From the NCBI RefSeq assembly GCF_001618385.1, contig NZ_BDCR01000004.1, forward strand, positions 744,001 through 808,000: a stretch of 64,000 bases of DNA, in the 5' to 3' direction. The position numbers were made by a program, and so were the translations under genes. The notes below the pieces were generated by a model. It ran no database searches. It saw only the letters and a program-made list of their open reading frames with translations, and was not told the DNA's origin. Origin of the DNA: Paludibacter jiangxiensis (GTDB taxonomy: Bacteria > Bacteroidota > Bacteroidia > Bacteroidales > Paludibacteraceae). Within the stretch, counting starts at the first letter, position 1. Each line of letters begins with the position of its first letter. Shown here in pieces: positions 37,653 through 44,066 of the stretch.

Positions 37653-37684
37653 ATTGCAAAAAGATTATAACAAATGTATATTTG
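37653..37684 (+). promoter_or_regulatory. Promoter of the TonB-dependent receptor gene
   Basis: ATTG (37653-37656), 20 nt, TATATTTG (37677-37684). It overlaps the first codons of the longest open frame, showing that the true start lies downstream. Confidence 0.65.
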
Positions 37685-37718
37685 CAAGCGAAAACGAACA
37701 ACCGATATTCTTAAAAAT

Positions 37719-40115
37719 ATGGAAATTATGTTGATGCGAATATACTCTATGCTTACTTTACTGCTATTGCTGATCATTTCTCCGATTCAGGCTCAGCAAC
37801 AAACACATGCCATCCGGGGCAATGTATTAGACAAAACCACTCGCGAAATGCTACCTTTTATCAATGTAGTGATTTGGGAAACTACGAAAGGCGCCACTAC
37901 CGACAGTGTCGGAAACTACACTATTGGCGGTGTGAAAAGCGGCACTTACCGTTTGCAAGCCTCCGCCGTTGGTTACAAAACTTTTATATCGCCCGAATTT
38001 TCTGTGGTAAATAAAGATATGGAATTCAACATTGAACTGGAGGAGAATACAGAAACGCTAAAGGAAGTAAAAGTGACAGCTGGTCCGTACCGTAAACCCG
38101 CCGAAAGTCCTGTGTCGATGCGGGTGATCGGTTTTGCAGAAATTGAAAAGAGTGCCGGAGCCAACCGCGACATTTCAAGAGTTATCCAATCGTTTCCGGG
38201 AGTGGCCTCGGCTCCATCCGGCTATCGCAACGACCTGATTGTGCGTGGTGGTGGCCCCTCCGAAAACCGATACTATATCGACGGAGTAGAAATCCCCAAC
38301 ATCAACCACTTCTCCACGCAAGGTGCATCGGGCGGTCCGGTGGGCATTATCAATGCCGAGTTGATTCGTGAAACCGACTTCTACTCGGGAGCTTTTCCGG
38401 CAGGAAAAGGCAATGCTATGAGTTCAATTCTCGATTTCCGGCTCAAAGACGGCAACAGCACGACCCGCACTTACAATATTGCGCTTGGTTCGTCCGAAGC
38501 TGCCTTCACCACCGACGGATACATCAACAAAAAGACGACCTACCTCTTTTCAGCACGCCAATCGTACCTACAACTGCTCTTCAAGGCATTGAAACTTCCG
38601 TTTCTGCCGGCTTACACCGATACGCAGTTCAAGGTAAAAGTCAAGTTCGACAAAAAGAACGAACTGACCTTGCTTGGCCTCGGTGCTATCGACAACATGT
38701 CGCTAAACACCGATACGGCCGGACAAACCGATGGCAACAAATACATTCTGACCACCATTCCAGTGATCCGCCAAACCACCTATACACTGGGTGGCGTGTG
38801 GAAACATTTTGCAGGGAATACGGTTCAGAGTTATGTACTGAGCATAAATAACCTCGACAACAAACAACATAAATACCGCAACAACGACGACAGTTCGGAA
38901 GCCAACAAGATACTCGATTATTCCTCGTTCGAACGCGAAATCAAGTTCCGCTTTGAAAACAGCAGCCAACTTGACCACTTCCGTCTCAATATTGGTGCAA
39001 ACACTGAACTGGCACGCTATTTCAACAACACACGCCAAACTGTTTATGCGAATGGCATCTCTACCAACTTGGCCTACAACACCGACATTTCGTTCTTCAA
39101 ATGGGGACTTTATTCCTCATTAAACTATGACAGCAACGATGGTAAACTCACTGTCTCGGCTGGTCTGCGCACTGATGCCAATACCTTTACCAGCTCCATG
39201 TCGAACCCTCTTCGCCAACTCTCGCCTCGTATCTCGCTGGCCTATTGCATTGCCGACGGGTGGTATATCAACGGAAATTTAGGGCGCTATTACCAACTGC
39301 CCTCCTACACCGTGCTAGGCTATAAGAATGACTACGGAATGCTGGTCAATAAGGCCAACAACATACGCTACCAGAGATCGGACCAAGTGGTTATCGGACT
39401 GGAGCAACGCCCCACCAACTACATACGCCTGACGCTCGAAGGCTTTTACAAACGATATACAGACGGATTGCTATCTGTCTCCGACGGCATTCCTCTCTCC
39501 TCCAAAGGAAATGACTATACGCTGTTCGGGACGGAAGCGGTCACCTCCTCAGCAAAAGGGCGAGCCTACGGAGCTGAAGCACTGGCACGTTGGTTCGGAT
39601 ACAAAAACCTGAACCTGATCGTGGCTTATACCTTTGTGCGAAGTGAATTTTTGGAGCCGGCAACCGGCAAATATATCCCGTCGTCATGGGACAACCGCCA
39701 CCTATTAACCATGACCGGCAGCTACAAACTACCACGCAACTGGGACATCGGCACCAAACTACGGGTAATCGGCGGAGCACCATACACGCCTTACGATGCT
39801 TACAAATCGTCGATCAAAGCCGCCTGGGATGCGCAAAATCGTCCGTATTACGACTATTCTCGATTCAATGCCGAACGTGGTGCTGTATTCTCACAACTCG
39901 ATATCCGCATTGATAAAACCTACTATTTCAAAGGATGGATGCTCGGCTTCTATTTCGATGTACAGAACGCGACCAACAGTAAATACCGTCAGGCTCCTGT
40001 GCTAAATAGCACCGGAGTAACCGACCCGACTGATGCCAACCGCTACCTCATGAAAACTATTGATGTAGAAAACGGCTCTGTGGTTCCATCCATCGGTATC
40101 ATGATGCAGTTCTAA
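37719..40115 (+). CDS. TonB-dependent receptor with carboxypeptidase-regulatory domain
   Basis: About 798 residues. The start at 37719 (MEIMLMRIYSMLTLLLLLIISPIQAQ) lies after the promoter; ATGs at 37728 and 37734 are alternatives. Order: signal peptide, CarboxypepD-regulatory-like domain (about 30-110; IRGNVLDKTTREMLPFINVVIWETTKGATTDSVGNYTIGGV), plug (about 125-235; ANRDISRVIQSFPGVASAPSGYRNDLIVRGGGPSENRYYIDGVEIPNINHF) and a barrel to a C-terminal Phe (GIMMQF), as in functional TonB receptors. Ligand unknown. It stands alone, without SusD, so sugar-type import is not implied. It shares a bidirectional terminator with the next gene. Confidence 0.88.
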   Translation: MEIMLMRIYSMLTLLLLLIISPIQAQQQTHAIRGNVLDKTTREMLPFINVVIWETTKGATTDSVGNYTIGGVKSGTYRLQASAVGYKTFISPEFSVVNKDMEFNIELEENTETLKEVKVTAGPYRKPAESPVSMRVIGFAEIEKSAGANRDISRVIQSFPGVASAPSGYRNDLIVRGGGPSENRYYIDGVEIPNINHFSTQGASGGPVGIINAELIRETDFYSGAFPAGKGNAMSSILDFRLKDGNSTTRTYNIALGSSEAAFTTDGYINKKTTYLFSARQSYLQLLFKALKLPFLPAYTDTQFKVKVKFDKKNELTLLGLGAIDNMSLNTDTAGQTDGNKYILTTIPVIRQTTYTLGGVWKHFAGNTVQSYVLSINNLDNKQHKYRNNDDSSEANKILDYSSFEREIKFRFENSSQLDHFRLNIGANTELARYFNNTRQTVYANGISTNLAYNTDISFFKWGLYSSLNYDSNDGKLTVSAGLRTDANTFTSSMSNPLRQLSPRISLAYCIADGWYINGNLGRYYQLPSYTVLGYKNDYGMLVNKANNIRYQRSDQVVIGLEQRPTNYIRLTLEGFYKRYTDGLLSVSDGIPLSSKGNDYTLFGTEAVTSSAKGRAYGAEALARWFGYKNLNLIVAYTFVRSEFLEPATGKYIPSSWDNRHLLTMTGSYKLPRNWDIGTKLRVIGGAPYTPYDAYKSSIKAAWDAQNRPYYDYSRFNAERGAVFSQLDIRIDKTYYFKGWMLGFYFDVQNATNSKYRQAPVLNSTGVTDPTDANRYLMKTIDVENGSVVPSIGIMMQF

Positions 40116-40118
40116 AAA

Positions 40119-40160
40119 CAAAATGCTCTGTAAATATAAAACCCACAGAGCATTTTGTTT
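40119..40160. terminator. Bidirectional terminator between receptor and synthetase genes
   Basis: CAAAATGCTCTGT (40119-40131) pairs perfectly with ACAGAGCATTTTG (40145-40157) and lies between two convergent stop codons. Confidence 0.88.
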
Positions 40161-40166
40161 ATCCTT

Positions 40167-43100
40167 CTATATTGACTTCGCTGGTGCTCCCACAAATTCT
40201 GTATCGGCAGGCAAAGTTTCGCTCTTCATCAAAACGGACAAAGGATGAAGTACGGAATTTGTTTCCATCTTTGAATCGTAAAGTACTACCGACATGCCTC
40301 CCACGCTGCATTTATCGGCAATATCCACATACGACATCTTCATCACGCGGTCTTCAAAAAGATGAGTTTGCAGCGTACAGTTGTCGTTTACCGTCACATC
40401 GTCGCCCATACGAACAAGATCGAATTCTGTAATCTGTGTAGTAAACATGCAAACCCGTTTGCCGATCTTACAACCCAGCAACCGCAACGGATATTTGATA
40501 AACGGCGTTCCCGTTAGCAAATTGAGGAAGAAAAGCACGAGAAAATTCTCATAAATTCCCGTTATCAGTTCGCTTCGCCACACATAGTTACTCCAAAGCG
40601 GTTTGCGGGCAGGTTTGTACTTTCCGATAACAATCCACTTCAAAAGAGCTGTAACCAGTGTTCCAAGAATAGCAGCGCCGAGATAGAGAAACGGAAAAAC
40701 CAGGAACAGCTCCCACAAAGATTTCTCCACCTGAAGATAAGACACAACGTTGGTGATCAGAGCCGCACAGGTAATAAACAGAGTTGAAGGCAAAACTACA
40801 CGAAAAAACTCGATAACATAGCGTTGTACAAAAAGCTTACGTGTCGGTTTATAGGTACGTTCGGCAGAAAATTCATGATTGATATCACGCTTAGGTAGAA
40901 AAACGGCCGGCGATCCAAACCACGAGGTTCCATCGGCAGCCGGGAGATTTTCCGGATTCATCTTTGAAAGCACACCTACCAATACATCATCTCCGAGTCG
41001 TGTACCCGGGCTCACCACGGCACTGTTACCCACAAACGTGCGATTACCGATACGTGCCTTGGCAATGGTGATATAGCCATTTCGCACATGTGAGGCTCCC
41101 ACAGAAACCGAATCGGCCAAAAAGCATTCGTTCCCGGTTTCGAGCAGATCAGGAGAAATGAATTCGACAGTCGATATTTCCACCCGTTTTCCCATCTTAA
41201 CGCCCAGCATTTTGAACCAGATTTGCAAATAAAGCGTAGTGTAAAGTGTTCCGATAACTTGCAGACTCAGCTTCATCAGCTGATCGAAAAACCATTTTTT
41301 ATAATAGAAGAAACTGTTGACCGGATATTTCCCTTCTTTGATATTTCCCAGCATTGACCATTTCAGAAAAACTATGATTAACGTCAGCAAAACCACAAAT
41401 GAAAAACCCACACCAATGGTTGTCCACAGAAAATGGTAATGTTCTGAAATATAGTCCAAATGCGTAATCAGCATCAAACCAGGGAAATAGGCCAGCATAG
41501 TAATCAACGGGATGATAAAAATGCTAACAAAAAAGAGAAATGAATTGCGGAAAGACCATAATTTACGGGAAGACTGCACTTTGTTTTCATATATTTTCTC
41601 AGCAGGCGAGCCGCCCCAATGTTCGTTGACCGGAATAACAGTGCCTTCCGAAACTAAAGTCAAGTCCTCGATGGAAGAATTGGCTTCCATTCTGGTGTCG
41701 GGAGCCAAACAGCAACGCGTTCCCACAAAACAATCTTTCTCAACCGTTATTTTGCCGATATAGAGGTAGCCGTCGGCAATAGTATATCCCCGCAAATGGG
41801 TGTCGGTGCAAATGCTCGCATTATCGCCCACTTCCAGCAAATCAAAAACCGATATTGCCGAAGTATTGATATAGACATTCTTACCAATTTTCGCACCCAA
41901 CATCCGTAAAAAAGCATTCATGATAGATGTTCCGGTAAAATAGGTAACCGGACAAATATTGATTACCTTATCGACTATCCAGAACCGAAAGTAATAGCTA
42001 CTCCACATTTTATATTTACCCGGCTTTATTTTCCCAATAACTGCCCATTTGAAACCAATGGCAAAACAAGACAAGATCGGCAATAGGGCAAAATACATCC
42101 AGAGCATAGTAGCAAGCGAATCAAAAACCCCATTATCAGCCTGATAATAATAAGAATACACAAAGAAAGGCCCTAACCATTCTATCCCAAACAATAGCAG
42201 CAGGAAAAACATCGACACTCCCTGGGCAAATACACAAGTGAAATACTTCCATTTGGGTGGAGTATAAATATCGCGTTTCTTTTTCATATGCTGCGTTGCT
42301 GCTCGCGGCTTTTTTTTCTCCAATTCACCTGCAAGATCGGACAGTACCGGATGTTTATAAATATCCACTACCGACATATTTTCAAACATCGTATTCTGTC
42401 TCATCTCCGAAACAATAACGGCAGCCAACAACGAATGCCCACCCAGATCGTTGAAAAAATGATCAGACATTGAAATATCGTCCCGACCGAAATTCCTGCT
42501 CATTACCTCCACCATGGCTTTTTCCAAATCAGTCACCGGCTCCTTGATTTCACTTTCTGACGAAAATGTAAGTGGCGTTTGGGGTAACGGCAATCGTTTC
42601 CGGTCTATTTTCTGACTGGATGTCATCGGTAGTTCCGGCACTACATCAAGCGTAGCCGGTATCATGTAATAAGGCAATTTGATGCGCAGCAATTTGGCAA
42701 TCGTTTCCCGGTCGGGTTCTTCATTATTTTGCATCACCGTATAGGCCGCTAATTGTTGTGTTTCGATGTTGAGCGCCACAGCAGCAGCCTGTACCCCGTT
42801 GAACTTCATCAACAATCCTTCAATCTCCGTAAGCTCCACCCTGAATCCGCGCACTTTCACTTGTGCATCAGACCGACCTAAAAATACAATATTGCCATCA
42901 TCTGCATATTTGGCAAGATCTCCCGTATGGTAGTATCGTTGATTTTTATAATCAAAGCGATCCGTTTCAATAAATTTCGCCTTTGTCAGGTCATCACGAT
43001 GAAGATAGCCTCGGGCAACGCTCTCTCCTCCGATGATGATCTCTCCCTCAACTCCAGCTCCAACCGGCTGCAGGTTTTCATCCACGATATATACCGAATA

Positions 43101-44066
43101 ACCTGGAAGTTGTTTCCCGATAGTAACAGGCACATCCGGCTGAAGAACAGAATAAGTAGCTATAACAGCAGCCTCGGTAGGACCGTAAGTATTGAAAACT
43201 GTACGACTTTTTCTGCACCAACGATGAGCAATATCCGGTGAACACACCTCTCCTCCGAAGATCAACGTCTTCAGCGATGGAATATCTTCTTTCACCATCG
43301 ACAACAAGGTAGGTGCACACGACAGGAAGGTGATTCCAAGGTTATTCAAAACAGAGGCAAACCGATCGCCCGAACGCATAATATCAAAAGTACCCACCAC
43401 CAAAGTCGCTCCCGAAGCAAAGGCCATCCAAATTTCTTCCACCGATGCGTCGAAAGCAACGGAAAAACCCTGCAGAATCCGTTGATTTTCGTCAACATCA
43501 TAGATTTGTTTGGCTGCTTTGATGTAATTAACAACGTTCCTGTGTTCCAACAAAACACCTTTAGGTTCGCCACTGCTGCCCGAAGTGTAAATAATGTAAC
43601 ACAAATCTTTACCGTTTCTATTCCCAACGATCGGCTTTTGTGTTGAGAATGATGTCAGCTTATCAACGTCGCTATCAAACAGGAACATCGTTGTTGCTTC
43701 GGGTTGAGCCTCTATCTGACGAAGAAAGCGTTCAGATGAAATAAGCACTTTAGCGTCAGAATCTTTCAGTATGAAGTTAACCCGGGCAACCGGAAGCTCA
43801 GGATCAAGAGGAATGTAAGCACCACCTGCTTTTAATACAGCTAACATTGCAATGTACACTTCCGGGGAACGTGGCAGCCAAATCACCACCTTTGCTTCCG
43901 GTTGTACACCTTGTCGTTGCAGCCAACCTGCCAGTTGATTTGCCATCTCATCAACCTCTTTGTAGGTAAATGCCTGTTGAGAAGACTCTATTGCAATATT
44001 TTGCGGATATTTTGCGACAGATGTTTCAAAAATCCAATCCAACAAAACAGTTCCTTCTTCCATCAT
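40167..44066 (-). CDS. Pls/PosA-like non-ribosomal peptide synthetase (A-T plus three membrane/left-handed-helix repeats)
   Basis: 1299 residues, membrane-bound. Adenylation domain about 10-500 with core motifs YIIYTSGSSGEPKG (A3), NTYGPTEAA (A5), YHTGDL (A7), GRSDAQVKVRGFRVELTEIE (A8) and SQKIDRKRLP (A10). Carrier domain about 510-580 with phosphopantetheine site GGHS (S545). The rest contains three repeats, each with membrane segments, an F/LKW-x-x-G-K-x-K-G-K motif, an LG-x-K-(I/M)-GK strand and left-handed-helix hexapeptides (about 660-820, 890-1060, 1110-1290). This is the layout of epsilon-poly-lysine synthetase and the PosA group. By alignment to PheA the pocket reads D206 A207 E210 S249 I269 G271 T293 V301 I302 K486, close to a lysine code. 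It needs a phosphopantetheinyl transferase, not in the window. The product is unproven. Divergent from the photolyase gene. Confidence 0.9.
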   Translation of the reverse strand: MMEEGTVLLDWIFETSVAKYPQNIAIESSQQAFTYKEVDEMANQLAGWLQRQGVQPEAKVVIWLPRSPEVYIAMLAVLKAGGAYIPLDPELPVARVNFILKDSDAKVLISSERFLRQIEAQPEATTMFLFDSDVDKLTSFSTQKPIVGNRNGKDLCYIIYTSGSSGEPKGVLLEHRNVVNYIKAAKQIYDVDENQRILQGFSVAFDASVEEIWMAFASGATLVVGTFDIMRSGDRFASVLNNLGITFLSCAPTLLSMVKEDIPSLKTLIFGGEVCSPDIAHRWCRKSRTVFNTYGPTEAAVIATYSVLQPDVPVTIGKQLPGYSVYIVDENLQPVGAGVEGEIIIGGESVARGYLHRDDLTKAKFIETDRFDYKNQRYYHTGDLAKYADDGNIVFLGRSDAQVKVRGFRVELTEIEGLLMKFNGVQAAAVALNIETQQLAAYTVMQNNEEPDRETIAKLLRIKLPYYMIPATLDVVPELPMTSSQKIDRKRLPLPQTPLTFSSESEIKEPVTDLEKAMVEVMSRNFGRDDISMSDHFFNDLGGHSLLAAVIVSEMRQNTMFENMSVVDIYKHPVLSDLAGELEKKKPRAATQHMKKKRDIYTPPKWKYFTCVFAQGVSMFFLLLLFGIEWLGPFFVYSYYYQADNGVFDSLATMLWMYFALLPILSCFAIGFKWAVIGKIKPGKYKMWSSYYFRFWIVDKVINICPVTYFTGTSIMNAFLRMLGAKIGKNVYINTSAISVFDLLEVGDNASICTDTHLRGYTIADGYLYIGKITVEKDCFVGTRCCLAPDTRMEANSSIEDLTLVSEGTVIPVNEHWGGSPAEKIYENKVQSSRKLWSFRNSFLFFVSIFIIPLITMLAYFPGLMLITHLDYISEHYHFLWTTIGVGFSFVVLLTLIIVFLKWSMLGNIKEGKYPVNSFFYYKKWFFDQLMKLSLQVIGTLYTTLYLQIWFKMLGVKMGKRVEISTVEFISPDLLETGNECFLADSVSVGASHVRNGYITIAKARIGNRTFVGNSAVVSPGTRLGDDVLVGVLSKMNPENLPAADGTSWFGSPAVFLPKRDINHEFSAERTYKPTRKLFVQRYVIEFFRVVLPSTLFITCAALITNVVSYLQVEKSLWELFLVFPFLYLGAAILGTLVTALLKWIVIGKYKPARKPLWSNYVWRSELITGIYENFLVLFFLNLLTGTPFIKYPLRLLGCKIGKRVCMFTTQITEFDLVRMGDDVTVNDNCTLQTHLFEDRVMKMSYVDIADKCSVGGMSVVLYDSKMETNSVLHPLSVLMKSETLPADTEFVGAPAKSI

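Follow-up and report, generated by a model that had tools for sequence, protein, structure and literature searches.

Epsilon-poly-L-lysine, a food preservative and antimicrobial, is produced by actinobacteria, some fungi and reportedly a few Bacillaceae (PMC8117764, PMC7179176). Its synthetase, Pls (Protein Data Bank (PDB) entry 7wew), joins an adenylation (A) domain and a thiolation (T) domain to three repeats of a transmembrane helix pair and a C domain, a layout written A-T-(TM2-C)x3. PosA from the Gram-negative bacterium Acinetobacter baumannii, which has the same architecture, has been proven to make delta-poly-L-ornithine, and its discoverers expect more producers of such polymers across bacteria (PMC10522769). 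Here we analyze a 64,000-nucleotide stretch of the Paludibacter jiangxiensis genome (the window; contig NZ_BDCR01000004.1, positions 744,001 to 808,000), whose minus strand encodes a 1299-residue member of the Pls/PosA family. This protein probably acts as a stand-alone, membrane-bound nonribosomal peptide synthetase (NRPS)-like enzyme that makes a cationic homopolymer of the epsilon-poly-L-lysine type. A first-pass annotation of the window had taken an enzyme for a cationic homopolymer to be new in a Gram-negative bacterium, a claim to which PosA is a counterexample.

Domain architecture of the synthetase

The open reading frame (ORF) is intact, with an ATG start and no internal stop codons, and comprises the following main features.

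40167..44066, minus strand: Pls/PosA-family homopolymer synthetase, 1299 amino acids, sole gene of its unit (ORF list, NCBIfam, Pfam)
42591..44030, minus strand: adenylation domain, residues 13-492 (Pfam PF00501/PF13193, TIGR01733; AlphaFold2 model)
42327..42512, minus strand: thiolation domain, residues 519-580, with pantetheine site Ser545 (Pfam PF00550)
40179..42224, minus strand: polymerising terminal domain TIGR02353, residues 615-1296 (NCBIfam)

The NCBIfam model TIGR01733 (AA-adenyl-dom) matches residues 34-430 with 420 bits (cut-off 317), and the terminal domain scores 618.2 bits against TIGR02353 (Pls/PosA family), for which the curated cut-off is 423.1. Six Pfam families were found in the synthetase; condensation and thioesterase domains are absent from them, and a single A domain is accompanied by a single T domain. 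The AlphaFold2 model of these two domains (residues 1-592; predicted local distance difference test score (pLDDT) 90.0) resembles NRPS A domains when compared by fold with solved structures. Ser545 is kept in all 95 rows of an alignment of the family. Its own genome contains no second full match to the synthetase; six other matches align with parts of the A domain (26-44% identity).

The substrate pocket

The ten residues of the substrate pocket were first located from sequence motifs and then traced across multiple alignments. They are D206, A207, E210, S249, I269, G271, T293, V301, I302 and K486, which spell DAESIGTVIK and occupy the following interval.

42609..43451, minus strand: interval from D206 to K486 with all ten pocket residues (multiple alignments)

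The alignments bear out the lysine-like code that the first-pass annotation had proposed. In an A. baumannii family member the same columns read DMEHNGTVSK, identical to the code printed for PosA (PMC10522769), which calibrates our choice of columns. A Streptomyces gene annotated as pls, the A domain of which aligns with the epsilon-poly-L-lysine synthase 7wew over 508 residues (983 bits), reads DAESIGTVVK. The window enzyme and this Pls are identical at nine of ten pocket positions with an A-domain identity of 34.9%; five relatives with Met, Leu or Phe at position 2 match at four to six pocket positions with A-domain identities of 35.6-41.0%. When the fixed Asp and Lys are set aside, seven of eight positions agree with 7wew-type Pls (rough binomial P of 0.0035). 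The match to Pls exceeds the eight of ten that the earlier annotation had cited for the lysine module of bacitracin synthetase. According to a study of the fungus Epichloe, Pls and the bacitracin module share a conserved lysine pocket, which the fungal epsilon-poly-L-lysine enzyme carries too (PMC7179176).

Work on PosA indicates that Asp at position 1 and Glu at position 3 hold both amines of the substrate and that residue 2 sets the length of the accepted chain: Ala for lysine, Met for ornithine, and Phe for diaminopropionate or diaminobutyrate. Indeed, the M218A substitution in PosA raises lysine use nearly tenfold (PMC10522769). The window enzyme has Asp206 and Glu210 at positions 1 and 3, and Glu210 is present in 95 of 95 rows. 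Because its position 2 is Ala, lysine is favored among the three cationic substrates that had initially been considered, and ornithine and diaminobutyrate become less favored. One of the two patterns used in our genome scan demands Ala or Met at position 2, which skews pocket counts taken from the aligned rows. Among relatives found by the terminal-domain model alone, the pockets read in 21 Bacteroidota are lysine-type in 17 (one of them DAESVGTVVK) and ornithine-type in 4, a set that leaves out G600 and G836, represented by fragments only.

An enzyme of the same family and mechanism could use another long cationic substrate, such as beta-lysine, ornithine, arginine or a modified lysine, in which case the polymer would not be epsilon-poly-lysine. 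Other residues at position 2 do occur: an epsilon-poly-beta-lysine enzyme has Gly there (pocket DGESISVVNK), and a pocket with Ser, DSECYGGVTK, is associated with arginine activation (PMC10522769). We came across no assays of members of the window's clade in the open-access literature searched. However, these two codes differ from that of the window at four and five positions, respectively, as opposed to one for Streptomyces Pls, and ornithine-type and Phe-type enzymes fall into other groups in both trees described below. We therefore regard a different substrate as unlikely.

The terminal domain

The three C-terminal repeats are homologous to one another (BLASTP E values of 3e-27, 8e-22 and 2e-13). 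Modeled with AlphaFold2, residues 598-1299 (mean pLDDT 90.6; predicted template modeling score 0.89) form six long helices, which fall into three pairs with a beta-helix after every pair. Hydropathy peaks coincide with all six modeled helices; weaker windows at 60-78, 212-230 and 1167-1185 pass the same threshold. The elements, in the order of the protein, are as follows.

42039..42254, minus strand: membrane helix pair 1, residues ~605-676 (model, hydropathy)
41580..41897, minus strand: left-handed beta-helix C1, residues ~724-829 (model; weak hexapeptide acetyltransferase matches)
41349..41552, minus strand: membrane helix pair 2, residues ~839-906 (model, hydropathy)
40896..41204, minus strand: left-handed beta-helix C2, residues ~955-1057 (model)
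40629..40841, minus strand: membrane helix pair 3, residues ~1076-1146 (model, hydropathy)
40170..40475, minus strand: left-handed beta-helix C3, residues ~1198-1299 (model)
40362..40364, minus strand: His1235 in C3, within the motif QTHLFEDR (95-row alignment; candidate catalytic base)

Together with the TIGR02353 match, these results confirm an intact, Pls-like protein composed of an A domain, a T domain, six membrane helices and three left-handed-helix repeats, as the first-pass annotation had described it. The PosA authors predict the same layout of three beta-helices and six helices for their enzyme (PMC10522769), so the model counts in favor of a Pls/PosA-type polymerase.

His1235 is the only histidine of the window's terminal domain that is kept in all 95 rows, and Q1233, E1214, D985 and N1014 are likewise invariant. 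His1235 is thus a candidate for the catalytic base. Every one of the 27 rows that make up the Bacteroidales clade of the window has a second histidine, H757 of C1 (window 41796-41798; motif D-T/S/C-H), as do 5 of the 68 remaining rows. This residue was considered as the catalytic histidine of C1 and rejected: the internal-repeat alignment places H757 four residues away from the equivalent of H1235, and it therefore does not duplicate that site. The three domains have reportedly been the subject of a mutational study by Kito et al. in 2013.

The fold search with the terminal-domain model returned weak matches to hexapeptide acetyltransferases (best Z 8.0, root-mean-square deviation 2.8, 141 residues aligned), and no solved structure of the whole domain was among the matches listed. 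Since such Z values are common, we draw no function from them. The matches include 4ihh, a complex with acyl carrier protein from lipid A synthesis, which we take to be LpxD. Enzymes built on a left-handed beta-helix commonly transfer acyl groups to small acceptors or to precursors of lipids. It can accordingly be asked whether the synthetase activates lysine and moves single residues or short chains to a lipid or glycan acceptor in the envelope, in the manner of the Dlt system that D-alanylates teichoic acids. The membrane-bound nature of the terminal domain would suit such a transfer, and DltA is a distant relative of the A domain (280 bits, under the DltA cut-off). On the other hand, similarity of fold at Z values up to 8.0 shows no function, and Pls and PosA, the characterized enzymes with this terminal domain, make free homopolymers (PMC10522769). 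We consider transfer to an envelope acceptor improbable, slightly more so than the use of a different substrate.

Relatives and distribution

In counts that include the window's own genome, seven of the eight genus genomes contain a Pls/PosA member, and at the level of the taxonomic family the figure is 8 of 150 (above cut-off). The order has 13 among 393 genomes at E <= 1e-60 (12 of them above cut-off), spread over 10 of 207 genera, and the phylum 6 among 395, from 6 of 171 genera. The named genome scan identified relatives encoded in 500 of 590 stretches, of which the best 80 were used. Among these 80 are Paludibacter genomes, Bacteroides neonati MS4, Segatella paludivivens DSM 17968 and a Muribaculaceae genome, together with more distant relatives from Elusimicrobia, Verrucomicrobia and others. 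Plasmid records contain a relative in 69 of 72,556 cases, and 17 of the best 40 of these 69 are annotated as "Pls/PosA family". One plasmid member, from Mycobacterium avium (L150, 946-4926), has the pocket DAESIGTVVK and adjoins a cysteine-synthase-like gene.

The sporadic occurrence of the gene in the order and phylum, and its lack in one of the eight genus genomes, might be read as a degenerate or silent relic that yields no product. This is very improbable. The ORF is intact, the A-domain positions checked are present along with Glu210, Lys486 and Ser545, and seven of the eight genus genomes have kept the gene. Moreover, the ratios of nonsynonymous to synonymous substitution rates (dN/dS) with the two nearest relatives are 0.094 and 0.070, the two unsaturated comparisons of six (dS was saturated in the other four). 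The synthetase is under strong purifying selection.

Two trees were built from the 95 rows, one for the terminal domain and one for the A domain without its pocket columns. Both were obtained by a quick method and rooted at the midpoint, and several of their long branches are unsure. Seven ORFs shorter than 1200 amino acids (L050, L051, L077, L080, L091, L095 and L132), L145 (897 amino acids) and five duplicates had been dropped. In each tree the window lies in a 27-row Bacteroidales clade with a Shimodaira-Hasegawa-like approximate likelihood-ratio test (SH-aLRT) value of 100, nested within a 30-row set that also contains Elusimicrobia and Sporomusa (SH-aLRT 99). The agreement of the two trees on this clade gives no sign of domain swapping. 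Pockets within it are nearly invariant, with DAESIGTVIK in 26 of 27 rows and DAESVGTVVK in one. The pocket type at position 2 requires six and five changes on the two trees.

Two other groups of Bacteroidota appear in the trees. Seven rows (L052-L055, L120, L127 and L131) have the ornithine-type pocket DMEHNGSV[TS]K, close to Acinetobacter PosA; they are possible makers of poly-ornithine. Three rows (L103, L105 and L107) have a lysine-type pocket and are separate from the clade of the window on either tree, which suggests more than one acquisition.

Genomic setting and partner genes

The synthetase gene faces away from a photolyase gene (44231, plus strand) and towards a TonB receptor gene (37674-40115, plus strand), from which it is separated by a terminator-like element.

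40116..40160, no strand: perfect 16-bp inverted repeat, terminator-like, between the convergent receptor and synthetase genes (sequence)

With a divergent photolyase gene at one end and an inverted repeat at the convergent end, the gene looks like a one-gene unit. In the genus member that lacks it (G060, 96% complete; no match at 1e-15), the receptor and photolyase genes stand side by side, their matches 56 bp apart as opposed to 4,124 bp in the window. More distant relatives carry the synthetase among other neighbors. The empty site and the changing neighbors indicate that the synthetase comes and goes as a single gene, by gain or loss. Window segment 35016-37604, with GH16 and glutamate dehydrogenase genes, is likewise missing at the matching place in G060.

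The synthetase is single-copy in all 24 clade genomes searched. Clustering of the neighbors at 25 clade loci and the window (up to six ORFs per side, fewer on short contigs) revealed no conserved neighbor: the largest shared family, glutamate dehydrogenase-like, is found at 4 of 26 loci and the others at 2 or 3. The TonB receptor and photolyase were accordingly rejected as partners, since neighbor families are shared by at most 4 of the 26 loci.

The first-pass annotation had suggested looking for a linked phosphopantetheinyl transferase or poly-lysine hydrolase; neither turned up near the gene, M1-type enzymes being the only peptidases searched. The genome encodes one PF01648 protein of 221 amino acids on another contig, which could in principle suffice to prime Ser545. 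A profile search found one or more PF01648 proteins in each of the 24 clade genomes, never near the synthetase; they lie on a different contig except in two finished or near-finished genomes, where they are ~0.74 and 1.75 Mb away. A tblastn search of the window and 27 clade loci with four phosphopantetheinyl transferases and the Streptomyces peptidase gave no match, but the transferase queries miss one another too, which makes this test weak beside the profile search. In three alphaproteobacterial relatives (L139, L142 and L151), unlike in the Bacteroidales, a phosphopantetheinyl transferase gene lies no more than two genes away from the synthetase. The enzyme beside Streptomyces pls is a Peptidase_M1. 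Matches to this family occur in 17 of 25 clade genomes (11 above cut-off) but never close to the synthetase; the single match on a synthetase contig belongs to the window's own genome and is below cut-off and ~529 kb away.

Discussion

The window enzyme shares with Pls its layout, its TIGR02353 domain and nine of ten pocket residues, and it is from this pocket match that we infer lysine as the substrate. With PosA it shares architecture, a Gram-negative host, 36% identity in the terminal domain and organization as a single-gene unit without obvious neighbors. It differs from PosA in its pocket (six of ten matches, with Ala in place of Met at position 2) and belongs to another group in both trees. 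Members with Phe at position 2, of the diaminobutyrate or diaminopropionate type by the PosA rule, are of the same family and match the window's pocket at four (L143) and six (L140) positions. L143 (6097-8683), on a Streptomyces plasmid, stands directly before genes for diaminobutyrate transaminase and aspartate kinase, a gene order fitting poly-diaminobutyrate. Unlike L143, the window synthetase is not directly followed by either gene.

Several observations weigh against assigning the enzyme to epsilon-poly-L-lysine synthesis. Position 9 of the pocket is Ile in place of the Val of Streptomyces Pls, and enzymes with similar pockets may still differ in acceptor or chain length. The structure 7wew was not among the best 50 matches listed for the A-T model. 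Identity with Streptomyces Pls is 35% in the A domain and 30% in the terminal domain. In both trees the five actinobacterial rows with a Pls pocket make up a separate long branch, to which the window is not sister. Finally, unlike the Streptomyces gene, the Bacteroidales synthetases have no M1 peptidase near them, this being the one peptidase family searched. On balance, an epsilon-poly-L-lysine-type product remains the probable one.

We infer the following course of lysine activation, loading, linkage, chain growth and export. The A domain would bind L-lysine through Asp206 at the alpha-amine and Glu210 at the epsilon-amine, and form lysyl-AMP. The pantetheine of Ser545, installed by an Sfp-sized transferase encoded elsewhere in the genome, would then take up lysine in thioester linkage. 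On the terminal domain, with its three left-handed beta-helices on six helices, the side-chain amine of lysine may attack the thioester repeatedly, His1235 of C3 being the candidate base, and the polymer would leave into or through the membrane. Its biological role would probably be antagonism of competitors or a function at the cell surface. For the Bacteroidales clade as a whole, we see about an even chance that its members produce epsilon-poly-L-lysine or a closely related polymer by means of a one-gene cassette, found at unrelated chromosomal sites with no dedicated partner or resistance gene adjoining.

The family itself is already known. What is added here is a Bacteroidales clade of lysine type with a near-invariant pocket, encoded by a solitary gene at changing sites. 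By its domains, the window gene would probably fall into the antiSMASH class NAPAA (non-alpha poly-amino acids). A NAPAA cluster has been tabulated for Hymenobacter psoromatis, a member of Bacteroidota, as a cluster label as opposed to a characterized product (PMC11925752), and this also weakens the novelty initially claimed for Bacteroidetes. The available parts of further NAPAA papers name no product for such clusters in Bacteroidota, and no word beginning with "bacteroid" appears in the main text of the PosA paper (PMC10522769).

The clade has a near-unchanged lysine pocket and includes, besides many environmental genomes, the named strains Bacteroides neonati MS4 and Segatella paludivivens DSM 17968; strains held in named collections offer a direct test in Bacteroidota. 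Heterologous expression should be simple for a self-contained gene without adjoining partners for substrate supply or degradation. The division of Bacteroidota enzymes between lysine-type and ornithine-type pockets provides a ready test of the position-2 rule. Bacteroidota are abundant in guts and anoxic sediments. If our interpretation is correct, the polymer would be the first of the epsilon-poly-lysine type shown in this phylum, as far as the open-access literature searched reaches, and how such a Gram-negative bacterium survives its own polycation would become a question.

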